From Bacteroidaceae bacterium (lineage in GTDB: Bacteria; Bacteroidota; Bacteroidia; Bacteroidales; Bacteroidaceae): a stretch of 34,334 bases of DNA. Made by a program: the position numbers and the translations under genes. Positions within the stretch are counted from its first letter, which is position 1. Each line of letters starts with the position of its first letter. Below are positions 15,470 to 31,405 of the stretch, in pieces. The notes below the pieces were generated by a model that was not told where the DNA came from, ran no database searches, and saw nothing but the letters and a program-made list of their open reading frames with translations. The stretch is from assembly GCA_024697785.1 (NCBI GenBank), contig JAILEU010000095.1:1-34334 (forward strand), in the 5' to 3' direction.

Positions 15470-18139
15470 TTACTGGAAAAGGACTTTCTTTCCGTTCACA
15501 ATGTAGATGCTGCCGCCCGCGGGCGTGACGGTGCGGTTGCCCTGCAGGTCAAAAACGATGTCGCCCCCGTCGCTGTCGCACGAAACCATCTCCACGCCCG
15601 TCGGCCCGACGACGAACGTCAGCGTGGCCGAGAAGGGAGGCATCACGTCGTCCTCGTCCGTCACGTTGAGGGTGATGCTGTACTCGCCCTCGTCCAGACG
15701 TCCCAGCGAGGTGGTGGCTTCTACGTCCTCGTTGCCCTCTTCCTGACTATGGTAGGTGCCGCTGAGGACAATCTGCCTGCCAGCGATGGACTTTACACTT
15801 TGCTGATAGCGTCCTCCGACGATGCCCCTCACGCGACAGACCACGTCCACGTCGCTGCTCTCCTTCGGATCCTTCTGTCCCGTGGAGATGTCCGTCTTGG
15901 GCGGTTTCTCGCGTACGAAGCCCCGCACGCCGTAACCCTTGAACGAAGTCTCGTGCAGCGTATAGTCATCGACGATGGCCGTCTTTCCGTAATAGCCGGA
16001 GAGATAGATGTAATAGTAATCCTCCGTGCATCCTTCAATGGCGACATCCAACGTTAGTGGCTGCATATCGACTACATTGTTTCTCTCCTTGTCCAACTCC
16101 GACACCATGTTCAGGTAAATGTCGTGGCCGACGATGGTGTATTCAAGGGAGGTCATCACGTCTGGATTCCCCGTATAGTAACCATTGATGGAGAGAACGC
16201 TATCTTGAAGGGAAAAGACGAAACTATTATCGTGCTCGCTGTCAATAGAACCTTCGAAAATGCTGTTTCCCAACGGCACACACGCAACGTCCTCGATGAT
16301 TTCGAAATTCTTCCAGTAGTCGGCCGCAGCATAAGCCTCCTTGCTTCCCGCAGGAACACGAAGTGTGCCGTATTTCCAAAAGGTCAGGTCTTCAATCTCA
16401 GGTGGAGTTGTGGCATCACATACTACAAAAGTGAGTTTGTAACAATTGACAAAAGCATGTTGTCCGATCTTCTTGACACTGCTTGGGATGGTGATAGTAG
16501 GCATGCTGCTGCAACCAGCAAAAGCTCCCCTCCCAATTTCTGTGACAGTATTTGGAATGCTGACAGAAGTCAAAGACATACAACTAAAAGCCTCTTCTCC
16601 AATGGTTGTGACCCCATAAGGGATAATGACGGAAGTTACCCCGCAACCTTGAAAGGCCCACCCGCCAATCGACGTCACTGTGTTTGGAATAGAAACAGAG
16701 CTTAGATTGGCACAACCACAAAAAAAGTAATCCCCTATAGTGGTGAGATTCTCTGGAAGCGTATAAGAGGTAAGTTCGTAACAACCCCAAAGTATGCCCA
16801 TTCCCATGTGTTCTATTTGTTCCGGGAGTGTGATAGTTGTCAGGGAGCTACAATTGCAGAAAGCATTATCTCCAATGCTTTTCACGCTATTGGGAACAAC
16901 AAGCGACGGCAGGCTGGTACAACCGAAAAAAGCGAATTCTTCTATATGGGTTAGTCCATCAGAAAGAGAAACCGATTCCAATGCTGAACATTGCAAAAAA
17001 GCCCTTTCTCCGATGTTGGTCACACTGCCTGGTATTTCGATTGATGAGAGTCCGGAACAGTTTTCAAATGCACTTTCCTCTATTCTTGCTATGCCATCTG
17101 GAATAACTGTATTCATACATCCTGCCAATAACGTGTTCGAAGCTGTCTCAATGAGAGCATTGCAGTCGTTCCGACTGTCGTAGAACGGATTGCCTTCATC
17201 CACAACGATAGAAGTCAGGCTCCAGCTATCCAGGAAAACATTCTTACCAATTTGTGCAACGCTTTTGGAAATAGAGGCGGAAATCATTCCTCTGCAATAG
17301 GCAAAAGCACTGTCTTCAATGCAGGTCGTTCCATTAGGAATCTCTATAGATTCTAAGCTTTCACAGAATTGAAAGGCTTGTTTTCCGATGGTTGTAACGC
17401 TTTCTGGTATAGTGACAGAAACCAGCATGTGGTTTCCATAGAAAAGATTTTCAGGGATTTCAGTAATACTACCAGGCAGCGTGAAGGAATGGAACCATGA
17501 ACCCCAAAAAGCTCCGCATCCAATGGATGTGACACTATCGGGGATGTCCATAGACAAAAGCTTTTGACAGCAAGAAAAGGCGTATTTTCCAATAGTTGTA
17601 ACGCTATTGGGAATAGTGATAGATACAAGATGATAGCAATCACCGAACAGGCTATCTGATATGCAGGTTATGCTGTTAGGAATAACAACTGTTTCCAGTT
17701 CCGAATAAAGGAATGCACCCGTTCCGATATGGACAACACTTTCTGGAATGTCAATAGTGGGAAATGTACAACCCATAAAAGCCCGATTCCCAACGCTGAT
17801 GAGAGAATGAGGCAAGGAAATTGAGGATAGCTTTTCACAATAAGCAAAGGCATCATTTTCGATGCTGGTAATACCTTCAGGTAAGTTGACTGAGGTCAGA
17901 TCGAGGCAAAAGAAGAATGCTTTTGCTCCAATGCTGGTAACACCGTACTTCTTTCCTTCATGTTCTACAACAGAAGGAATGCTTACATCCCCAGAATAAG
18001 GCTCTTCTCCCTTCGTTACAGAAACTTCATCGTCTCCTACCTTATTATAATAGATGCCGTCAACCTTGAAGTCGTAGGCGAACGTGGCGGTGATGTTTGC
18101 TAAAGCAGCCACAACAAATAATACTACTCTTTTTTTCAT
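15470..18139 (-). CDS. BspA-like leucine-rich-repeat surface protein with T9SS-type tail
   Basis: Predicted secreted adhesin-type protein, 889 residues. The frame is open further upstream, but the start is set at 18139 because MKKRVVLFVVAALANITATFA is a signal peptide and a perfect promoter lies just before it. About residues 50-600 are some twenty LRR_5 (BspA/TpLRR) units of the form ..ITSIGxxAFxxCxxLxSVxIPxSV. Residues about 610-840 form a Cys-poor region of unknown fold (Ig-like strands such as GEYSITLNVTDEDD). The end, IVFDLQGNRTVTPAGGSIYIVNGKKVLFQ-like in layout, matches the T9SS C-terminal sorting pattern (D..G.. ...G.YI.NGKKV). The LRR block is visibly more AT-rich than both flanks. 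Confidence 0.85.
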   Translation of the reverse strand: MKKRVVLFVVAALANITATFAYDFKVDGIYYNKVGDDEVSVTKGEEPYSGDVSIPSVVEHEGKKYGVTSIGAKAFFFCLDLTSVNLPEGITSIENDAFAYCEKLSSISLPHSLISVGNRAFMGCTFPTIDIPESVVHIGTGAFLYSELETVVIPNSITCISDSLFGDCYHLVSITIPNSVTTIGKYAFSCCQKLLSMDIPDSVTSIGCGAFWGSWFHSFTLPGSITEIPENLFYGNHMLVSVTIPESVTTIGKQAFQFCESLESIEIPNGTTCIEDSAFAYCRGMISASISKSVAQIGKNVFLDSWSLTSIVVDEGNPFYDSRNDCNALIETASNTLLAGCMNTVIPDGIARIEESAFENCSGLSSIEIPGSVTNIGERAFLQCSALESVSLSDGLTHIEEFAFFGCTSLPSLVVPNSVKSIGDNAFCNCSSLTTITLPEQIEHMGMGILWGCYELTSYTLPENLTTIGDYFFCGCANLSSVSIPNTVTSIGGWAFQGCGVTSVIIPYGVTTIGEEAFSCMSLTSVSIPNTVTEIGRGAFAGCSSMPTITIPSSVKKIGQHAFVNCYKLTFVVCDATTPPEIEDLTFWKYGTLRVPAGSKEAYAAADYWKNFEIIEDVACVPLGNSIFEGSIDSEHDNSFVFSLQDSVLSINGYYTGNPDVMTSLEYTIVGHDIYLNMVSELDKERNNVVDMQPLTLDVAIEGCTEDYYYIYLSGYYGKTAIVDDYTLHETSFKGYGVRGFVREKPPKTDISTGQKDPKESSDVDVVCRVRGIVGGRYQQSVKSIAGRQIVLSGTYHSQEEGNEDVEATTSLGRLDEGEYSITLNVTDEDDVMPPFSATLTFVVGPTGVEMVSCDSDGGDIVFDLQGNRTVTPAGGSIYIVNGKKVLFQ

Positions 18140-18170: not shown

Positions 18171-18203
18171 CAAAAATAGGGCATAAAAAGGGTTGCTTCC
18201 AAA
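18171..18203 (-). promoter_or_regulatory. Promoter of the BspA-like gene
   Basis: Complement of 18171-18178 is TATTTTTG (-7) and that of 18200-18203 is TTTG (-33), spacer 21. The 5' leader is about 25 bases. Confidence 0.75.
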
Positions 18204-18209
18204 TTTTTA

Positions 18210-18229
18210 GCGTGACAAAAGCGTGACAA
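18210..18229 (-). promoter_or_regulatory. Direct-repeat element upstream of the BspA promoter
   Basis: GCGTGACAAAAGCGTGACAA: two GCGTGACAA half-sites 11 bp apart (one helical turn), immediately upstream of the -33 box. The identical 20 bases stand at the same distance (39 bp from the -7 box) in front of the TPR/HTH regulator gene. A further single GCGTGACA is at 18263-18270. Confidence 0.65.
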
Positions 18230-18345
18230 TTTACGTTTCGGACGAATAAAAGGGGGAGCTTGAGCGTGACACAATGAAGGTAAAAAAGGGGGGTAATATC
18301 GAAAAAATGCCGATGGAATGGGGATTTTTTCGGACGTTTGGGGCA

Positions 18346-19977
18346 TCAGGCGCTGAAGAACAGGTTGCCCCAGTCGTCGCTTAGTTTGCCCTTGATGCGG
18401 CTTTTGCGCTTGCGGAGTACGGCGGGATTGCTGCGCTCGCATTGGGCGATGAGGCTGGTGCTCATGCCGAGGTAGGCGTAGAGGCAATAATAGACTTCGT
18501 CGATGTTGAGGCTGGGGCACTCGTTCTTCAGATCGACCATAACGTCCGAGAAACAATCGGAGAGGGCGTTGCGAAAGTTGTTATGTTGTTCAAGCGTCAT
18601 GTCGTGGCCGGTACTCTCCAGCTCGTTCAGCCGCTTGGGCCAAGGGGTGAGGAGGAATGCCTGACGGCTGTAGGAGCATTGTTGACGCCGCAGCGCAAGC
18701 AGCTGGTCGTCGTCCTCGGGCGAAGCGGTCTGCATGTGCTCCATCTTCTCCTTCTGCTGGAGTATTTCCAGACGGGCTTTGGAGAGCAGCTGCTGTAGGC
18801 GGATGAAGCGGTTCTTATGGTAGCGGTCGGCAAGCAGGAAGAAGAAGGCGCCCAGCAGCACCACAAGGACGAGCAGCGCGGCGAGTGTCGAGGTCTGCCG
18901 CTGCCGCTGCACCTTCTCCGCACGGGCTTGCAGTTCCAGCTCATGACGGTTCATCAGCGCCGTGAGCTCCACGCCGTTCCACTGCCGCCAGGCAGAGTCG
19001 GCCAGCATGGTGTAGCGGTCCATATAGTAGCCGACGGAGTCGGGCTGATGGCGTGTGAGGCAGATGGCTGCCATCTTACGGCAGAGATTGACCTGCGTGA
19101 AGAGCTCTTCGTCGCTGCCGAGGGCGCGATGGAAACAGACGGCAGCGGAGTCGGTCTGCCCCAGCCCCAGACAGGCATCGCCCAGCACACTATAGACGGC
19201 GCCGAACGTCTTGCCCTTCAGGCAGGCATAGGCGTGAGTCTTGGCGGTGGGAAAGTCCTCGCGCAGATAGCAACAGAGCTTGGCGGCTTCGAAGTGGGCT
19301 TTCTGCTTTAGCCCCTCCGAGGCCCGGGGATGGGCGAAGAGGCTGTCGAGACGCATGGCAGCCTTGGCGGCTTCTCCCTTATTAATATAGACCTTGGCGA
19401 TGTGGTAGCTGTTGACCAGCGTATCGCGCACCGACACCGAGGGCGAAAGAGTGAAACGGCGGTAGGCACTGAGTGCCTCGTCGAACATGCCGCGGTTGAC
19501 GTAGTGATGGCCGAGGTTCTGGCAGCAGAGGGCGTAGTAGCGCACGGTGGTGTCGGGGAAGAGCGTCTGTGCCGTGAGGAAGGCATCGACAGCACGGACG
19601 TCGCTCGCCATATCGGTATAAGCACAGCCCAGCGAGTACCACGCCATAGCCGCGTGATAGCTCCGACGGCGGCTGCCGTAGTAGCGTGTGGCCAGACGGG
19701 CAAGCGAGTCGGACGTGAGGGAACGGAAACACTTATAGTCTGCCTGAACCGTCATCCACGCCCAGTCGGCAAGCGCTTTAGAGGAAGGACGGTAGAGGTG
19801 GGAGGAACGTTCCAGCAGTTCCTGTGCGGCTTCGGGGTCGGTTTCGAGAAGTGCTTCGGCTATCTCAAGCTGGCGGCGGACGGAGCGCTGGTCAGCGTGG
19901 CATGAGACGGAGAGCAACAACAGCGTGGCAGCTGCTGCGACTAAAAGGGCTCGGCGTGGGTTGGATTGGGACATCAT
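18346..19977 (-). CDS. Membrane-tethered TPR regulator with C-terminal HTH
   Basis: 543 residues. The N-terminus (RRALLVAAAATLLLLSVSC, possible lipid Cys26) targets the envelope. Residues about 30-350 are TPR helices (SYHIAKVYINKGEAAKAAMRL; VYSVLGDACLGLGQTDSAAVCFHRAL). One membrane helix lies at about 363-384 (LAALLVLVVLLGAFFFLLA), followed by a coiled coil. The cytosolic end, residues about 487-532 (LNIDEVYYCLYAYLGMS...LRKRKSRIKGKL), resembles a LuxR-type helix-turn-helix. I infer a sensor that binds DNA directly from the membrane, as for other Bacteroidales TPR-TM-HTH proteins. It is 206 bases upstream of the BspA gene and shares its upstream element. Confidence 0.75.
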   Translation of the reverse strand: MMSQSNPRRALLVAAAATLLLLSVSCHADQRSVRRQLEIAEALLETDPEAAQELLERSSHLYRPSSKALADWAWMTVQADYKCFRSLTSDSLARLATRYYGSRRRSYHAAMAWYSLGCAYTDMASDVRAVDAFLTAQTLFPDTTVRYYALCCQNLGHHYVNRGMFDEALSAYRRFTLSPSVSVRDTLVNSYHIAKVYINKGEAAKAAMRLDSLFAHPRASEGLKQKAHFEAAKLCCYLREDFPTAKTHAYACLKGKTFGAVYSVLGDACLGLGQTDSAAVCFHRALGSDEELFTQVNLCRKMAAICLTRHQPDSVGYYMDRYTMLADSAWRQWNGVELTALMNRHELELQARAEKVQRQRQTSTLAALLVLVVLLGAFFFLLADRYHKNRFIRLQQLLSKARLEILQQKEKMEHMQTASPEDDDQLLALRRQQCSYSRQAFLLTPWPKRLNELESTGHDMTLEQHNNFRNALSDCFSDVMVDLKNECPSLNIDEVYYCLYAYLGMSTSLIAQCERSNPAVLRKRKSRIKGKLSDDWGNLFFSA

Positions 19978-20030
19978 GGTTTCTTCCGTATGAGACAGCG
20001 ACGCTGGTCAACTTCGTCGCTTAGCAGGAG

Positions 20031-20063
20031 CAAAGATACACCATCTATGCCCTATCTTCCAAA
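20031..20063 (-). promoter_or_regulatory. Promoter of the TPR/HTH regulator gene
   Basis: Complement of 20031-20038 is TATCTTTG (-7) and that of 20060-20063 is TTTG (-33), spacer 21. Confidence 0.75.
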
Positions 20064-20069
20064 CTTTTT

Positions 20070-20089
20070 GCGTGACAAAAGCGTGACAA
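20070..20089 (-). promoter_or_regulatory. Direct-repeat element upstream of the regulator promoter
   Basis: GCGTGACAAAAGCGTGACAA, identical to 18210-18229 and equally spaced from the promoter. It is followed by ATGACAG, which also ends the 26-bp arm of the inverted repeat at 13225. Confidence 0.65.
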
Positions 20090-20137: not shown

Positions 20138-20183
20138 TATCCGACGGCGGTGTGGCGGGATTATCCGACGGCGGTGTAGCGGG
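20138..20183. repeat. Tandem duplication of the dprA 3' end
   Basis: Two 22-bp copies (TATCCGACGGCGGTGTRGCG plus GG) start at 20138 and 20162, period 24, one base different. The right copy holds the last dprA codons and stop; the left one is non-coding. Confidence 0.8.
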
Positions 20184-21288
20184 CGCCGGCGAGGGTACGG
20201 ACGAGGCCCTTCATCTCTAAGGAAAAGAGCAGGCTGGTGAGACGGCCTATGGGGATGTCGGCTTCGACGACGATGTTGTTAATGTGCAAAGCATCGCCTG
20301 CTCCGCGCAGGATGGAAAGGACGCGTTCTTCCTCGGGGCTGAGCTCGACGAAGAGCTGGCGCTGCACGGGTTTGTCGGCGCCCTGCGTGGTGTCCCAGCG
20401 CATGGCCTTCAGGAAGTCGTCGGCCGAGGTGATGAGGGCTGCGCCATTACGCAGGATGAGGTTGTTGCAGCCTTTGGAGTATTCGTCGCCCACACGACCG
20501 GGGAAGGCGAAGCAGTCGCGGTTGTAGCCCTGGGCGATGTCGGCGGTGACGAGTGCGCCGCCTTTGGCAGCCGACTCGACGATCACTAGGGCGTCGGCCA
20601 TACCGGCGATGATGCGGTTGCGCTGGAGGAAGTTCTGCCTTTCGGGCTCGGTGACGCTCATGTACTCGGTGACGAGCCCGCCGCCGCGGGCGGTCATCTG
20701 TGCCGCTACAGAACGATGGACGGAGGGATAGATGCGGTCGAGGCCGTGGGCCAGCACGCCGACGGTGGAGGCGCCGTAGGCCAGCGAGGCGCGATGGGCG
20801 GCGACATCGATGCCGTAGGCGAGTCCGCTGACGATGAGGATGCCGGGAACGGCAGCGGCGAGGTCGCGCACGAATGTGTCGCAGAGGCTGCGCCCGTAGT
20901 CGGTGGCCTTGCGGGTGCCGACGATGCTGACGACATGGGCGGCGTTGAAGTCGGCTGTGCCGAGGGTGTAGAGCACCAGCGGGGCATCGTCACACTCGCG
21001 CAAACGCGACGGATAGGCGGGGTCGTGGAGGGTGAGGATGCGGATGTGGTGCTTGGCCGCAAAGTCGATTTCCACTTTGGCCCGCTGCCAGGCGGCGGGG
21101 CAGTCGAGGGCTTGAATAAGAGAGGGCCGAACCCCCGGAAGAATGTCCGGAAGTTCGGTCCTATGTTCATAGACAGCTGTTGCTGTGCCCAGTGTGCTGA
21201 CCAGTTGGCGGGCGAGGATGACACCGACATGCGGGGTGCATGTCAACGCAAGCATCGCTTGCAGCTCGTCAGCAGGTGCCGGTGCCAT
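20161..21288 (-). CDS. dprA: DNA-processing protein DprA
   Basis: Binds incoming single-stranded DNA and loads RecA during natural transformation. The Rossmann-like core is intact: SIVGTRKATDYG at 121-132, SGLAYGIDVAAHRASL at 154-169, GVLAHGLDRIYPSVH at 177-191, and RNRIIAGMADALVIVE then GGALVTADIA at 223-252. The N-terminal SAM-like region (LTCTPHVGVILARQL) and the C-terminal winged-helix (about 315-375, HINNIVVEADIPIGRLTSLL) are both present. 375 residues is full length. Its ATG overlaps the stop of the upstream lipoprotein gene by one base (TAATG), so the two are likely coupled. Confidence 0.95.
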   Translation of the reverse strand: MAPAPADELQAMLALTCTPHVGVILARQLVSTLGTATAVYEHRTELPDILPGVRPSLIQALDCPAAWQRAKVEIDFAAKHHIRILTLHDPAYPSRLRECDDAPLVLYTLGTADFNAAHVVSIVGTRKATDYGRSLCDTFVRDLAAAVPGILIVSGLAYGIDVAAHRASLAYGASTVGVLAHGLDRIYPSVHRSVAAQMTARGGGLVTEYMSVTEPERQNFLQRNRIIAGMADALVIVESAAKGGALVTADIAQGYNRDCFAFPGRVGDEYSKGCNNLILRNGAALITSADDFLKAMRWDTTQGADKPVQRQLFVELSPEEERVLSILRGAGDALHINNIVVEADIPIGRLTSLLFSLEMKGLVRTLAGARYTAVG

Positions 21289-24541: not shown

Positions 24542-27493
24542 ATGAAAAAGAAACTAATGAGGTTTATCTGCACATCGCTGCTCATCAGCGGTGTGCTGAA
24601 CGTGAATGCCGGGGCCACGGGCGGTTCGTGCGGCGCTGGCGCCACATGGTCGTACGACGCCGACGAGGGAACGCTGACCATCGCCGGCACGGGAGCAATG
24701 GCAGACTACACCGACGCCCTGACAGATGCCCCCTGGAATGACTATCGTACCCAGATCGCCCAGGTGGTCGTCGGCGACGGCATTACCCACATCGGCAACT
24801 GGGCCTTCATGGGCTTCACCAACATGACGAGCGTTACCATCGGCAAGCGCGTGGAGAGCATCGGCCACGAGGCTTTCAGCAACTGCACCAACGCGGGCTT
24901 CACCAAGCTGAACATCCCGGGCAGCGTCAAGACCATCGGAATGTTTGCTTTTTCTAACAACCACCTGAAGTACGTCTGCATGGGCAGCGGCGTTACGTCG
25001 ATAGGGCGCGAGGCGTTCTGCCTATGCCAGAACCTGGAGTATGTAGGCATCTATGCGCTTACGCCACCGGCATACGGGATGGATGCCTTCAGCGCCGTTC
25101 CCAACCTGAAGGCAATCTACGTGGACGATTACTGCCGGAGCGGCTATGCCAATGCCGACGGTTGGAGCACCTTTGCCGACATCATCCAGCGTCCCTTTGG
25201 CTACTGCGGCGACAGCGATGGCGCCGAACCAGGCGAGAATGTCTATTGGGGATACGACATGATGACATGCAAACTGACGATCTCCGGCACGGGAGCCATG
25301 AAGGACTATAGCGCTATGGGCGGGCCGACAGCCTATCCCTGGAACAACCCGGCGTTCAACCCCATGGGCGGTGAATACGATATGTATTGGACCGGCATCG
25401 AAAAGATCGAAATGAGCAAAAACATCACCAACGTCCCCGACTGGGCCTTTGCCATGCAGATTAACTGCACCTCTGTCACGCTGCCCTCGGCGCTGACCTC
25501 TATCGGCAGCAGCGCACTGGAGGAATGTGCCTTCACCAGCATCACCCTGCCCGAGGGTCTAACCACCATCGGCGATTATGCTTTCTATGGCTCAAAGCTT
25601 ACCTCTCTGCTAATCCCCAGCACAGTGAGCACCATTGGCGCTGATGCCTTCTTGGACAACGACGACTTGGCATACGTCACCTGTGCCTGCTCAGCCCCAA
25701 TAGCGCTGATTAACGGCACATTCGGTGACGGCAGCGCGCTCGCCGCCATCTTCGTACCCGAGAACACTACGGATGCCTACAAGGGCGCTGACGGATGGAG
25801 CGCATACGCCGACAAGATTCAGGCCGTCCCGACAACCACCTTCACCTACACCGCCGCCGAGAAGGTGGCGAAGTTCGATAACTATGAAGACTTCAATGGC
25901 GCCATTGGCATCAAGTCGCACGAATTTGCCGACGGAACAGGCACAGTGGTCTATACCGGCTTTGTGACAGCCTTGGGCGAGCGTGCGCTGAGCTACGCGA
26001 AAATGACCGGCATCTACATCCCCGAGAGCATCACTTCCCTGGGCTCAGGTGCTTTCATGAGCAGCACTCTGGAATCCGTGACATTCGCAGGCACCGCATC
26101 GCTGAAGACCATCGGCTCGAGAGCGTTCAGCTCCTGCTCGTCGCTGACGGCCTTCATCGTCCCCGAGAGCGTGGAAACCATCGGTGACAGTTCGTTTTCC
26201 GACTGCGAAAACTTGGCAACAATCACCTTCGCCGGCACTCCCGCCGTCACCAGCATAGGCGACGCGGCCTTCCAGGACTGCAAGAAACTGACCGCCTTCA
26301 CCATCCCCGTAAGCGTAACCACCCTTGGCAAGACGGTATTCTGGTTTACGGGGCTGACCTCGCTCACCATCCCTGCCGGCGTCACACAAATCGGTCAGGC
26401 CCTTTTCTGCTCAAGCCCCATCACCTCGCTGACAGTCGATGCAGGCAATGCCAACTATGCAGACCTGGGCTGTAACGGCATCTTCGAGAAGGCCACGGGC
26501 AAGCTCGTCGCTGGCGGCGCCATCACCACCGTCCCCGACGGCATCAAGACCATCGGCCAGGAAGCCTTCTGGGGTGAGGAGGGAACGTTTTCCCTCTCCC
26601 TGCCCGAGAGCGTCACTACCATCGAAAACCGCGCATTCCACATGGCGAGAGGACTCACCAGCCTTAGCATTCCGTCGGGAATTACTTATATTGACGAGGA
26701 GTGTTTCCAGTTTTGCGAGGGTATGCAGGATATCTATTGCTATGCAAGTCCGACGATGACTTGGGATGGCGGAATGGAGCTCCCTGCATTCATCATGATG
26801 ACACCCAAGGCCACCCTATTCCACGTGGCTGCCGCCGACCTTGACGCTTGGACAACGAATTTCGCCGATGCCAATGTATCTTTTGTGGGCGACCTCTTGA
26901 CCAGCAAGGAGACCATAACCATCGGCGCTGCCGGAATGGCTACCTATTGCAGCTCGTACGCTCTCGATTTCAGCGGCTCTGACGTGGTGGCCTACATCGC
27001 TACCGCATTCGACGGCAGTACGGTCACGTTGACACCCATCACGGAGGTTCCATCGCACACGGGCATCATCATCGTCGGCAATGCGGGCAACTACGACATC
27101 CAGAAGGGCGCGGGCGGCATCGCGGACGGCAATCTGCTTGTGGGGACCACCATTGCCAAACAACTCAGCCAGGTGCAGGGCGACAACACCATCTTTATCC
27201 TCGGCAACGACGGCACGCATGGCATTGGCTTCTACAAGGTAGCCGACAACAGCACCATCGCAGGCCACAAAGCTTACCTGCCGCTGCCGACGGCAAGCCT
27301 CGGCGCTGCATCAAGCATAAGCCTGCGCTTCGACGATGGCACAACGTACATTCGTTCAATGGAAAATGGAGAATGGAAAAAGGAGAATGAGGCTAGCGAA
27401 TGGTTCACCGTCGATGGACGACGGGTCGAGGCCAGTCGCATCACCCCGGGACTTTACATTCTGGGTGGCAAGAAAGTAATTGTGAAGTATTAA
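24542..27493 (+). CDS. BspA-like leucine-rich-repeat surface protein with T9SS-type tail
   Basis: 983 residues, predicted secreted. Signal peptide about residues 1-24. Two copies of a short beta module (W.YD...LTI.GTGAM.DY...PWN) at about 28-85 and 222-300. LRR_5 units (..ITSIGxxAFxxCxxLTxxxIPxSV) at about 75-200 and 300-760. A beta-rich region follows (TITIGAAGMATYCSSYALDFS, about 795-935). The last 30 residues, WFTVDGRRVEA...GLYILGGKKVIVKY in layout, match the T9SS C-terminal sorting pattern. Just before that tail the protein reads MENGEWKKENEASEW, encoded by a GAATGG-type repeat. Third gene of its operon, followed by a 58-residue peptide gene. Confidence 0.9.
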   Translation: MKKKLMRFICTSLLISGVLNVNAGATGGSCGAGATWSYDADEGTLTIAGTGAMADYTDALTDAPWNDYRTQIAQVVVGDGITHIGNWAFMGFTNMTSVTIGKRVESIGHEAFSNCTNAGFTKLNIPGSVKTIGMFAFSNNHLKYVCMGSGVTSIGREAFCLCQNLEYVGIYALTPPAYGMDAFSAVPNLKAIYVDDYCRSGYANADGWSTFADIIQRPFGYCGDSDGAEPGENVYWGYDMMTCKLTISGTGAMKDYSAMGGPTAYPWNNPAFNPMGGEYDMYWTGIEKIEMSKNITNVPDWAFAMQINCTSVTLPSALTSIGSSALEECAFTSITLPEGLTTIGDYAFYGSKLTSLLIPSTVSTIGADAFLDNDDLAYVTCACSAPIALINGTFGDGSALAAIFVPENTTDAYKGADGWSAYADKIQAVPTTTFTYTAAEKVAKFDNYEDFNGAIGIKSHEFADGTGTVVYTGFVTALGERALSYAKMTGIYIPESITSLGSGAFMSSTLESVTFAGTASLKTIGSRAFSSCSSLTAFIVPESVETIGDSSFSDCENLATITFAGTPAVTSIGDAAFQDCKKLTAFTIPVSVTTLGKTVFWFTGLTSLTIPAGVTQIGQALFCSSPITSLTVDAGNANYADLGCNGIFEKATGKLVAGGAITTVPDGIKTIGQEAFWGEEGTFSLSLPESVTTIENRAFHMARGLTSLSIPSGITYIDEECFQFCEGMQDIYCYASPTMTWDGGMELPAFIMMTPKATLFHVAAADLDAWTTNFADANVSFVGDLLTSKETITIGAAGMATYCSSYALDFSGSDVVAYIATAFDGSTVTLTPITEVPSHTGIIIVGNAGNYDIQKGAGGIADGNLLVGTTIAKQLSQVQGDNTIFILGNDGTHGIGFYKVADNSTIAGHKAYLPLPTASLGAASSISLRFDDGTTYIRSMENGEWKKENEASEWFTVDGRRVEASRITPGLYILGGKKVIVKY
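27358..27391. repeat. GGAGAATGG-type short repeat inside the BspA gene
   Basis: Imperfect AATGGA(A)AA / GAATGGAAAA / GGAGAATGAG units, kept in frame, exactly between the beta region and the sorting tail. It resembles the GAAAAATGAAAAATGAAA run at 12937-12955. Confidence 0.6.
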
Positions 27494-27888: not shown

Positions 27889-30420
27889 CTACTTCCCGTC
27901 CTTGTTGTCGGGCCAGATGTCGTTCCACCAGCGGTCGTCGTTCTGGAGGAAGCGGGCGAACCAAGCCATGATGGTATTGTGCCAGAGGATGCGCTTGGGA
28001 TAGTCCTGGATGAAGTGGTTCTCGCCCTCGACCTCGATGAATTCGACGGTTTTACCGAGAATCTTCAGGGCGTTGAAGAGCTGGATGCTCTCGCCGATGG
28101 GAACATTAGTGTCGGCGGTGCCGTGAAGCAGCAGCAGGGGGGTGTTGATTTTGTCGGCATTGAAGAGCGAACCCTGTGCGAAGAGGTCGGGGTTCTGCCA
28201 GGGCCAGCTGCCGGCAGCGGCAATGGCATTGTAGCTGTAGCCCCAGTAGCCTTCGCCCCAGTAGCTGGTGACGTTGCTGATACCGGCGTGCGAGACGGCA
28301 GCGGCGAAGATGTCGGTCTGCGTCTGTAGGTACTGCGTCATGAAGCCGCCGTAGGAGGCGCCCATGCAGCCCACGTGGTCAGCATCCACAAACGGGTGGG
28401 CGGCGCAGAACTTCTGCACACCTTCGATGATGTCGTTGGCCGTCCACTTGCCCCAGGCGTTGACGTGACGGGCCGAGAACTCCTGCCCGAAGCCGATGGT
28501 GCCGCTGGGCTGGATGACATAGACCACATAGCCGCGTGAGGCCAGCAGCTGGGCACAGTAAGGGCTGGAGATGCCTTTTGTCGTGGGCGTTGTGCCGCCA
28601 TAATAATAGACAATCATCGGGTATTTTTTCGAAGCATCGAAGGCGGGGGGCAGGCAGCATTTGCCCGTGATGAGGGTGCCGTCGGAGGCGGTGAAGTTCC
28701 ACGCCTCGGTCTGGCCGAGCTCCAGCTTGTCGAGTTGTTCCTTCATGGGGTCGGCGATAAGGCGCGACGTACCTTTCTTCATCTGATAGAGGTAGGCACG
28801 TCCGGCGCTGTGGTCGTCGGTACCGTAGTAGGCCGCTACGGAGGCGTCGTCGGTGGGCAGCACGAACGAGGAGACGACGGGCGTCTCCAGCGGCAACCGC
28901 TTCATGGTGCGGGCCTTGGGCGAATAGACATAGACGTTCACGTCGTCAGCCTCGGTGACGCGAAGGTAGATGTTGCCGTCGGCGCGGTTCCAGATGATGT
29001 TCTCGATAGAGGGGTTGAAGTCGCGGGTGATGGCCTCCACCTCACGCGTCGCGAGGTCCATGATGTAGGCCTGCTTGTCGTAGTTGTTGGCGATGGGGAA
29101 GTTGCCGCAGTTCTTACCGATGCTGTCGAAGGCCTCGGGACCTCCGGTGAAGAGCAGCTTCGTGCCGTCGGGTGAGTACTCTACCCCATCCATGTAGGGT
29201 TTGTCCGTAAAGATGGTGTCGATGGTGCGTGTCGTCAGGTCTAGCTCGCAGAGGGTGGAGATATAATAATACGGATGGCGCGAAACGTCCTCGTCAGAAG
29301 ACTGGAGCAGCACCTTCTTCCCGTCGGGCGAGATGTCGGCGACGTATGTGGACTTTTTGCCGAAGGTGAGGCGCTCGGTGGTGCCGTTTTCGGGATAGTA
29401 GATGCAGGGGTAGGAGCTGTTGCGGTTGCCTGGGATGCGGTCGCGCGGCGAGAGGATGTGCTTCAGCGGACCGTTATCGCGGGCGCCCTCATCGTTCTTC
29501 ATGACAATCATCTTCTTCTCGTCGGGGAACCACTGGAAACGCTCATCGGGCAGGGAGCGGAAGAGCACCTCCTCCTGCTGCGTGAGGGGGTCGACCGTGA
29601 TGAGGTCGCTGCCCACAGCGGCGCGGCGCGTGTACCAGAGCTTGTCCGTACGGGGCATCCAGCGCAGGTTGCCGTTCACGTAGGCGATGTGCTTGCCTGA
29701 CTTGACCTCGGTGAGCTCGGCCCGCGAGTCGCTGCGGTCGGCGCTGTAGGCATAGGTATAGCGCGTGATGAGGTACTTGCCGCTGGGCGAGAGCTGCACG
29801 CCGGTGACGCGGTTATTATAGACGGTGTTATCGAGCATGAAGCGTCCCTTCTGGCTCATGCCTGTGGTGCAAACGACGTCCTTGAACTCCTTTTTGGCCA
29901 CCACCTCGCACTTGATGCAAAAATCGCCCTTTCCATCGGAGGGGACAAGCACTTTCAGGGTGACGGGATAGGTCTTTTCGGGCTCCATGCGCAGGGCGAT
30001 GGTGCGTGAGCTCTGGGGGCTGATGCTGTCCTGAGCCTCGGACTTCGAGGCCTTGCCCAGACCCTCGACGGAGGCATCGAAAGGCAGAGGACTGGTGATT
30101 TTCAGGTCGGCCTTCATGAATCGCTCGGCCCGCAGGCGTGTGGTGACGATGTAGAGGACGTTCTCGCCCTCGCGACCCGCCAGCGTCAGCATGCCGGTGG
30201 TGTCGGTGGTGACGATGTCCGAAGCAAACGCATCGGGGCTGACCACCACATCCGTCTTCAGCAAGTCGGCTTTGTAGCGGTTGCCTTTGATGTCTGTCGA
30301 ATCGCAGACAAACGGTTCTTTCACGGAGGCTGCCTCACGGACGGCATACTCGGTTACGGTCTGTGCCTGTGCCGTCATCAGCGGCAGCAGGGCAAGAGAA
30401 AGGAAATACAGTTTTTTCAT
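27889..30420 (-). CDS. S9-family serine peptidase (prolyl oligopeptidase clan)
   Basis: 843-residue exported peptidase. Signal peptide about residues 1-19 (LYFLSLALLPLMTAQA). Residues about 20-170 form an N-terminal beta extension, and about 190-590 a propeller with PD40-like blades (SPSGKYLITRY; ISPDGKKVLLQSSDED; YSPDGTKLLFTGG). The alpha/beta-hydrolase domain ends the protein with the triad Ser689 in GASYGG, Asp770 in HGTADTNVP and His802 in GENHFI. It would cut short peptides in the periplasm, fitting a peptide-fermenting lifestyle. Specificity (dipeptidyl, acylaminoacyl) cannot be told. Lies 52 bases downstream of xerD; no separate promoter was found. Confidence 0.92.
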   Translation of the reverse strand: MKKLYFLSLALLPLMTAQAQTVTEYAVREAASVKEPFVCDSTDIKGNRYKADLLKTDVVVSPDAFASDIVTTDTTGMLTLAGREGENVLYIVTTRLRAERFMKADLKITSPLPFDASVEGLGKASKSEAQDSISPQSSRTIALRMEPEKTYPVTLKVLVPSDGKGDFCIKCEVVAKKEFKDVVCTTGMSQKGRFMLDNTVYNNRVTGVQLSPSGKYLITRYTYAYSADRSDSRAELTEVKSGKHIAYVNGNLRWMPRTDKLWYTRRAAVGSDLITVDPLTQQEEVLFRSLPDERFQWFPDEKKMIVMKNDEGARDNGPLKHILSPRDRIPGNRNSSYPCIYYPENGTTERLTFGKKSTYVADISPDGKKVLLQSSDEDVSRHPYYYISTLCELDLTTRTIDTIFTDKPYMDGVEYSPDGTKLLFTGGPEAFDSIGKNCGNFPIANNYDKQAYIMDLATREVEAITRDFNPSIENIIWNRADGNIYLRVTEADDVNVYVYSPKARTMKRLPLETPVVSSFVLPTDDASVAAYYGTDDHSAGRAYLYQMKKGTSRLIADPMKEQLDKLELGQTEAWNFTASDGTLITGKCCLPPAFDASKKYPMIVYYYGGTTPTTKGISSPYCAQLLASRGYVVYVIQPSGTIGFGQEFSARHVNAWGKWTANDIIEGVQKFCAAHPFVDADHVGCMGASYGGFMTQYLQTQTDIFAAAVSHAGISNVTSYWGEGYWGYSYNAIAAAGSWPWQNPDLFAQGSLFNADKINTPLLLLHGTADTNVPIGESIQLFNALKILGKTVEFIEVEGENHFIQDYPKRILWHNTIMAWFARFLQNDDRWWNDIWPDNKDGK

Positions 30421-30472: not shown

Positions 30473-31405
30473 TCAGCGTGACGGATGCAAGATGTTGCGC
30501 GGATGATGCTCTACGATTTCTGTTCGCAGGCGGGTGGAGTCGATGTGGGTGTAAATCTCGGTGGTGCCTATATCCTCGTGCCCCAGCATGGCCTGGATGA
30601 CGCGCAGGTTGGCGCCGTTCTCCAACAGATGGGTGGCAAACGAGTGGCGGAAGGTGTGGGGGCTGATGACCTTTCGGATGCCTGCCTTCTCGGCCAACTC
30701 CTTGACGAGGTGGAACACCATGATGCGCGAGAGGTTCTTCTTGCGCAGGGAGCTGATGAATAGGTAGTCTTCGTAGCCAGGTTTGATGTCAATCTGGTTG
30801 CGGTCGTGCATATAAAGCTCGATTTCATCGATGGCCGTTGACGAAATGGGCACCAGCCGCTGCTTGCTGCCCTTGCCCTCCACGCGGATGAAGCCCTCCT
30901 TCAGGTAGAGGTCACTGAGACGCAGGTTGCAGAGCTCCGAGACGCGCAGCCCGCAGCTGTAGAGTGTCTCGATGATGGCGCGGTTGCGCTGACCTTCGCG
31001 CGATGAAACGTCGATGGAATCGATGATTTTGTCAATTTCCTCCACGCTCAGCACCTCGGGCAGATGGTCGGGAATCTTGGGCGACTCGAGCAGCTGCGTC
31101 GGGTCGGCTTCGATGATCCTGTCGAGCACCATGAAGTGGTAGAACGAACGGATGCCCGACAGGATGCGTGCCTGCGAACGGGGAATGATGCCGATGTCGA
31201 TGAGCGAGGCAGCGAATTGCTCCAGATCGTCCAGCGTCGCCTCAGCCAGCCCTTTCCCCTCGTCAGACAGATAACTAAGGAGCTTTTCCACATCCCTCAT
31301 ATAGGCATCGAGGGTGTTTGCCGACAGCCCTTTTTCGAACGCCAGATACTGTTTATACCTCGCGAGCGTCTTTTTATCGCCTTCTTTTGGTGGATTATTG
31401 CTCAT
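30473..31405 (-). CDS. xerD: Tyrosine recombinase XerD
   Basis: Resolves chromosome dimers at dif with XerC. Catalytic set complete and spaced as in E. coli XerD: Arg154 (CGLRVSEL), Lys178 (GKGSKQRLVP), His250 and Arg253 (HTFRHSFATH), His276 (LGHEDIGTT) and Tyr285 (TEIYTHID). The N-terminal SAM-like core-binding domain covers about residues 10-100. 310 residues is standard. No attachment site or neighbouring element suggests an integrase role, so the housekeeping call is preferred; XerC cannot be wholly excluded without alignment. Confidence 0.9.
   Translation of the reverse strand: MSNNPPKEGDKKTLARYKQYLAFEKGLSANTLDAYMRDVEKLLSYLSDEGKGLAEATLDDLEQFAASLIDIGIIPRSQARILSGIRSFYHFMVLDRIIEADPTQLLESPKIPDHLPEVLSVEEIDKIIDSIDVSSREGQRNRAIIETLYSCGLRVSELCNLRLSDLYLKEGFIRVEGKGSKQRLVPISSTAIDEIELYMHDRNQIDIKPGYEDYLFISSLRKKNLSRIMVFHLVKELAEKAGIRKVISPHTFRHSFATHLLENGANLRVIQAMLGHEDIGTTEIYTHIDSTRLRTEIVEHHPRNILHPSR

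Follow-up and report, generated by a model that had tools for sequence, protein, structure and literature searches.

The stretch of DNA analysed here (the window; 34,334 nucleotides) carries two neighbouring genes on its minus strand. The first, at positions 18346 to 19977, encodes a putative regulator of 543 amino acids, the open reading frame (ORF) being as claimed in the initial annotation. The second, at 15470 to 18139, encodes a BspA-like LRR_5 protein of surface type with 889 amino acids and a signal-like N terminus, and is the regulator's presumed target. The LRR_5 match of the latter protein had an E value of 3.3e-131 and a score of 431.5 bits against a gathering cut-off of 27.7. The start of this gene is most likely at 18139 rather than at the TTG at 18556 given in the mechanical ORF list.

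The regulator comprises a TPR solenoid (approximately residues 48 to 333), a long helix (residues 336 to 415) and a predicted C-terminal DNA-binding domain (approximately residues 415 to 543; positions 18349 to 18735, minus strand). A hydrophobic run seen by eye in the translation, inside the long helix at approximately residues 361 to 386 (18820 to 18897, minus strand), is presumed to be a transmembrane stretch. Residues 485 to 543 resemble HTH domains of the LuxR/NarL type, with SNPAVLRKRKSRIKGKL (residues 516 to 532; 18382 to 18432, minus strand) as the putative recognition helix. The full-length structure model had a mean pLDDT of 90.5 and exhibited an HTH-like arrangement in the C-terminal domain; taken together, Pfam and the model place the TPRs, the hydrophobic stretch in an 80-residue helix and the HTH-like domain in one chain. 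Pfam matches above cut-off were to TPR families only, with no NTPase domain, and no match to GerE or any other HTH family was obtained for the 150-residue domain at an E value of 0.1 or to an HTH family for the whole protein at an E value of 1. VIA-align matches of 14-3-3 proteins to the first helices of the domain were taken as helical-bundle noise. The lipobox of the protein was non-canonical.

A direct repeat in two adjacent promoters

The initial annotation had reported an identical 20-mer upstream of both genes, and its coordinates proved exact: GCGTGACAAAAGCGTGACAA lies at 18210 to 18229, in the promoter of the LRR gene, and at 20070 to 20089, in the regulator's own promoter. A third match was absent from the window with up to three mismatches allowed, and 100 shuffles of the window gave a mean of 0.00 matches. 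On the coding (minus) strand, where the element reads TTGTCACGCTTTTGTCACGC, each site has the form TTGTCACGC-TT-TTGTCACGC, a direct repeat of two half-sites with the 11-bp period that had been described.

Each repeat is accompanied by a −33 region, TTTGGAA, at 20057 to 20063 for the regulator and at 18197 to 18203 for the LRR gene, and by a −7 box, TATCTTTG at 20031 to 20038 (forward strand CAAAGATA) and TATTTTTG at 18171 to 18178 (forward strand CAAAAATA), respectively, all on the minus strand. At both sites the distance from the repeat to the far edge of the −7 box is 39 bp, confirming the earlier figure, and on the coding strand the −7 box begins 50 bp downstream of the first TG. The repeat had also been said to abut a shared −33 box; the shared motif (TTCCAAA on the forward strand) is present, but the wording was slightly generous because 6 bp separate it from the repeat. 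The −7 consensus given for Bacteroidota in PMC12632263 is TANNTTTGY, which the regulator's box fits. With TATCTTTG and TATTTTTG, both predicted promoters match the housekeeping type of Bacteroidota, a −7 TANNTTTG plus a −33 element.

An extra single half-site, GCGTGACAC, lies upstream of the LRR promoter at 18264 to 18272 (minus strand) and may be a chance occurrence; single half-sites with up to one mismatch numbered 14 in the window against 9.2 expected, which is not above chance.

The window's own genome (3.24 Mb in 201 contigs, 84.6% complete) contained three sites with up to three mismatches, and the pattern read backwards gave zero sites in the same 3.24 Mb. With so few copies, a dispersed genomic repeat was ruled out. 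The third copy, on another contig and with one mismatch, precedes another BspA-like LRR gene and is likewise 39 bp from the far edge of that gene's −7 box. When the three promoters were aligned, the repeat, the −33 region and the −7 box were conserved and the intervening sequence was mostly different.

Orthologous loci and the paralogue family

The protein search covered 19 genomes of the genus, the window's own included. Among the matches listed, orthologues of the regulator with 66 to 70% identity were found in four other genomes, and in all five genomes with an orthologue the repeat preceded both the regulator and the LRR gene next to it, with TGTCACG or TGTCACA as half-sites. The initial annotation had made its reading depend on the element recurring upstream of orthologous pairs, as it does, and on its not being widespread. 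The latter was borne out as well: the exact pattern TGTCACRYTTTTGTCACG (the group A operator) had 13 sites in the 19 genomes, all within the five orthologue genomes, and its reversed control had none. Group A operators were thus confined to the same 5 of 19 genomes in which group A regulators were found. Eleven of the 13 sites were within approximately 10 kb of the regulator, before regulator or LRR genes; one was in front of a second LRR gene of the window's own genome, away from this locus, and one (G009:C36) was directly after a paralogue, L105, which shares the R-K-R-K core of the recognition helix. The group B operator, TGCAATACTTTTGCAATA, occurred 18 times in 7 of the 19 genomes, the same seven in which group B regulators were found, a membership that in these incomplete genomes rests on the paralogues fetched among the matches listed; several of the 18 sites were on contigs without a fetched regulator. 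The pattern TGGGACGYTTTTGGGACG occurred 10 times in five genomes.

The regulator is a member of a large paralogue family, with up to at least 23 matching places per genome when partial matches are included. The related named loci (80 kept of 114) bear the labels of uncultured Bacteroidales or Bacteroidaceae, with samples from ruminants predominating. The layout seen in most of the fetched family members is a direct repeat of 11-bp period, TGN5-N4-TGN5, in which the N5 differs between paralogues and the promoter position is usually the same. Half-sites included TGCAATA (in seven genomes), TGGAACG, TGTAAGT, TGTCACT, TGTCTTG, TGAGCAA, TGTTAGA, TGGGACG, TGAAACG and others. Most often the repeat preceded the regulator gene, or was found between that gene and the following one, no farther than approximately 200 bp from the stop codon, or occupied both places.

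For counts of the layout, 101 loci were used, holding 102 regulators that are 300 amino acids or longer and were taken from among the matches listed; shorter regulators were excluded. The background was 20 stretches totalling 399 kb, with one further regulator (L175), which was left out of the 102 but is among the 196 control genes. Selection was based on protein similarity, apart from L080, L081, L092 and L161, which were chosen for motif matches (L080 and L081 contributing one counted regulator each). Every TAnnTTTG was taken as a −7 candidate, with identical promoter strings counted once. Perfect 7/7 repeats of period 11 that start 53 to 47 bp before the −7 candidate accompanied 25 of the 80 candidates located at regulator starts and 22 of the 81 located after regulators (next gene), against 13 of 554 elsewhere in the loci, these being repeats farther off, and 0 of 263 in the background. 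Perfect repeats with periods of 7 to 10 and 12 to 15 numbered 0 to 6 in each class. With 6/7 matches the corresponding counts at period 11 were 31/80, 30/81, 22/554 and 5/263, and other periods reached up to 11/554 elsewhere and 11/263 in the background (period 14).

By a strict rule that ignores −7 boxes, 53 of the 102 regulators and 5 of the 196 control genes have a perfect TG-type repeat of period 11 nearby; for other TG-type periods the numbers were 0 to 5 and 0 to 14, respectively. A relaxed rule, accepting periods 10 to 12 and one mismatch at period 11, gave 73 of 103 regulators versus 14 of 196 control genes (one of these being the regulator in L175), and 63 of 103 versus 2 of 196 when a −7 box was also demanded 36 to 56 bp downstream. 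A few of the 73 repeats, for example those of L097 and L118, are probably due to chance, given the 14 control genes that satisfy the same rule. Under the relaxed rule the other main periods were found in 12 (period 8), 8 (period 9), 16 (period 14) and 17 (period 15) of the 103 regulators, falling to 0, 3, 1 and 0 with the −7 box. Another period was therefore rejected: period 11 dominates, and the few cases of 10 or 12 appear to be variants. A chance origin of the repeat was also rejected on the shuffles, the whole-genome count and the background and control-gene counts. No repeat was found for 49 of 103 regulators by the strict −7 match and for 30 of 103 by the relaxed rule, four of the 30 (L088, L089, L139 and L151) being cut at contig ends. 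Orthologues in these counts are not independent, and clusters at 55% identity were counted as well; 22 of 24 had a repeat in at least one member.

The period among the 73 repeats was 11 in 66, 12 in four and 10 in three, and the −7 box lay 48 to 52 bp from the first TG in 56 and 38 to 40 bp from it in seven, with ten uncalled. The 73 repeats comprised 29 distinct half-sites, or 26 without five doubtful cases.

This positioning bears on whether the regulators might be repressors or anti-activators acting at the same operators. The sign of regulation cannot be read from sequence alone, and autoregulated genes are often repressed. The repeat, however, lies upstream of the −33 region and spares the core promoter, and it keeps an almost constant spacing from the −7 box (48 to 52 bp in 56 of 63 regulators, 38 to 40 bp in the other 7), as is typical of activators that touch the polymerase. 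Repression is an unlikely alternative to activation.

Variants of the layout were also observed. Half-sites 12 bp apart were present in L079, L115, L128 and L152, and half-sites 10 bp apart in L116, L121 and L132. L079, one of the seven cases at 38 to 40 bp, also has a second −7 box at 51 bp. The TGAAACG repeats that follow the regulators of L085, L101, L113, L127 and L129 have period 11, but their distance to the −7 box is approximately 40 rather than 50 bp, shorter by roughly one turn of the helix. The short regulators of L080 and L081 (437 to 439 amino acids) have promoters with several tandem half-sites at steps of approximately 11 bp (TGTCGCG, TGTCACA, GGTCACA, TGTCACG and TGTCACA), as if an array of sites might be bound.

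Covariation of the recognition helix with the half-site

If the HTH domain reads the adjacent repeat, half-sites would be expected to be predictable from the recognition helix but not from the sensor. Across 34 distinct helix/half-site pairs, half-site similarity correlated with helix identity at 0.53 and with TPR identity at 0.13, and the partial Mantel correlation of helix given TPR was 0.52 (p 0.0002). From the 73 operators, five with no −7 call and no perfect repeat after the regulator were excluded from the alignment, and the 68 kept gave 49 distinct pairs. In these the correlation with the half-site was 0.46 for the helix, 0.10 for the TPR region and 0.44 for the rest of the DNA-binding domain. 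The partial Mantel correlation was 0.46 for helix given TPR (p 0.0005), 0.04 for TPR given helix (p 0.25), 0.26 for helix given both TPR and the rest of the domain (p 0.0005) and 0.22 for the rest of the domain given helix (p 0.0005).

The highest mutual information with single half-site positions was found for S526, L450, R522 and K523 in the first set and for R522, F441, K523 and N491 in a reduced set of 30; S526, top in the first set, was outside the best 15 in the enlarged analysis. Since L450, F441 and N491 are outside the helix and the rest of the domain also correlates, phylogeny is not fully removed from these values, and we do not claim a full residue code.

Individual cases were in agreement with the correlations. 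The R-K-R-K core was paired with TGTCACG in three separate clusters, namely the window group (AVLRKRKSRI), L080/L081 (SAIRKRKERI) and L105 (STLRKRKARL). Relatives in the L105 cluster with STLRSRKARL had TGGGACG in an otherwise almost identical promoter, so that the helix switch from LRKRK to LRSRK goes with a half-site switch from TGTCACG to TGGGACG. Among the short regulators, AVQTRK was found with TGTAAGT in six cases, a relative with AVKTRK (one case) had TGTAACT and a second copy TGTAACC, and a relative with AVHARK (one case) had TGTAAAT. The helix core is not the whole code, because LRSRK pairs with TGGGACG, TGCAATA and TGCCACG and because the LRKRK of L144 is found with TGCCACG.

These data also speak to the proposal that some other factor reads the repeat and that the TPR protein serves only as an envelope sensor or partner. 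That the C-terminal domain has no Pfam HTH match would suit such an arrangement; against this, the half-sites track the adjacent paralogue's recognition helix rather than its sensor, operators A and B were confined to genomes that yielded the matching regulator, and the structure model predicts an HTH-like arrangement. We consider a separate reader improbable. It is more improbable still that the identity of the two window sites merely records a recent duplication of a promoter block: the two copies agree at all 20 positions and are also found at related LRR genes, but the repeat, −33 and −7 elements are alike in three promoters whose spacers differ, and the layout is kept across genomes (regulators 65 to 70% identical) and across paralogues with other half-sites. 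Binding of the repeat by the regulator's own HTH domain is supported by the covariation, and regulator and operator appear to have diversified together across the family.

Proposed mechanism, known systems and targets

The locus had initially been read as an autoregulated membrane sensor with a surface LRR protein as its target. The operator before both genes in five of five genomes supports this reading, which was too narrow in that the locus is one case of a larger family. We propose that each regulator would be a membrane-tethered one-component transcription factor, with a TPR sensor outside the inner membrane, a helix that crosses this membrane and, joined to it in the cytosol, a LuxR/NarL-like HTH. 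Two HTH units would occupy the two half-sites of the 11-bp direct repeat, on one face of the DNA and just upstream of the −33 region. RNA polymerase would thereby be recruited to the regulator's own promoter, giving positive feedback, and/or to the promoter of a neighbouring gene for a secreted or surface protein, here the BspA-like LRR protein. The paralogues would have diverged in recognition helix and half-site together, and each would therefore control its own target with little cross-talk.

The pattern suggests that each sister control protein carries its own DNA address. As judged from the sequences, the family probably consists of insulated, membrane-tethered activators that co-diversified with private operators and control secreted or surface proteins. 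To a more specific version we would give even chances: a hitherto undescribed, lineage-expanded set of membrane-spanning Bacteroidales TPR-HTH activators, at up to some twenty homologous places per genome, each insulated by its own 11-bp operator whose five variable bases would largely be coded by two or three residues of the recognition helix (at approximately 522, 523 and 526), with regulator and operator diverging jointly once duplicated, and each switching on one surface or secreted module in response to its own envelope signal, often with positive feedback.

Regulators of the membrane-tethered one-component and TPR-LuxR kinds have precedents, as do LRR surface proteins. In contrast to LuxR/NarL-type regulators such as NarL, LiaR, VraR and DosR, the window regulator has no receiver domain and no Pfam HTH match, and it has an extra helical segment before the HTH, a predicted membrane anchor and 11-bp direct repeats. 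MalT is a cytosolic activator with an ATPase domain, a TPR-like solenoid and a C-terminal LuxR-type HTH, and acts on directly repeated sites. The window regulator is predicted to share the solenoid, the C-terminal HTH and the direct repeats, but its solenoid precedes a transmembrane helix and Pfam finds no ATPase domain. ToxR and CadC work from the membrane with an N-terminal winged-helix DNA-binding domain, one transmembrane helix and a periplasmic sensor; the predicted combination of a sensor, one transmembrane helix and a cytosolic DNA-binding domain is alike, whereas the C-terminal LuxR-like HTH, the TPR sensor and the many paralogues with different operators are different. Searches of an open-access library yielded no recognised description of the family or of private direct-repeat operators, and no paper for NarL residue numbers.

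BT_3441 of Bacteroides thetaiotaomicron is itself, we presume, of the DUF3244 kind. According to PMC2954219, it is a small Ig-fold protein adjoining BT_3442, a TPR protein that heads a cluster rich in lipoproteins and possible pore-forming proteins and for which a role in protein interaction is suggested. This gene order is resembled by the DUF3244 genes found after several regulators here. The window protein scored 34.4 bits against the BT3442 family (NF053779), whose cut-off is 940, and thus falls outside it. A search for that family at an E value of 1e-100 gave a match in 1 of 121 genomes, and BT3442-family genes at two loci of one genome in another genus had no period-11 repeat at −7 candidates.

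Run at an E value of 1e-30, the family model had matches in 41 of the 151 genomes sampled from the family, spread over 15 of 30 genera. Among 21 family-level loci of other genera (L271 to L291), a perfect 7-base repeat of period 11 near a −7 box was found on either strand in four (L272, L281, L290 and L291), an uncontrolled count. Because only four of the 21 loci show it, the layout seems to be rarer or more diverged in other genera. Of 13 further named loci, three had a repeat (L218, L240 and L250), that of L218 repeating the L272 sequence and that of L240 being of low complexity. Outside the genus set, the repeats were TGTCCCA/TGTCCCG in L272, TGTACAT/TGTACAC in L281, TGTCAAG/TGTCAAC in L290 and TGTCCCG/TGTCCCG in L250, all with period 11 at approximately −50 from the −7 box. 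A relative of the regulator in L246 is on a contig labelled uncultured Fibrobacter, perhaps through a binning error or transfer.

To our knowledge, the control of BspA-like and other secreted proteins in gut Bacteroidales is largely open. The layout allows regulator, operator and target to be paired from sequence dozens of times, giving directly testable regulons, and the natural helix and half-site switches already resemble mutants of one another. The family could be used to study DNA reading by LuxR-like helices and insulation among paralogous regulators, and is a possible source of orthogonal parts for gut commensals.

Further presumed targets of the regulators include LRR genes. A Pfam scan took in eight presumed target proteins besides the window LRR protein. 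The small proteins after the regulators of L072, L106 and L120 matched DUF3244 above cut-off, the presumed target in L070, which is far from its regulator, matched sortilin-type repeats, and four of the eight had no Pfam family above cut-off. Signal-like N termini were seen by eye in several of the scanned targets and following genes, suggesting that secreted or surface proteins are, as far as seen, their common theme. At L072, L106, L120 and neighbours, the DUF3244 gene is directly 3' of the regulator and is followed by genes with signal-like N termini.

In the window itself, a further BspA-like LRR_5 gene (24542 to 27493, plus strand; 983 amino acids) has no 20-mer upstream and may belong to a different regulon. 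Other window genes were assigned by Pfam, all on the minus strand, as DprA-like (20161 to 21288), an S9 prolyl oligopeptidase (27889 to 30420) and a tyrosine recombinase (30473 to 31405).
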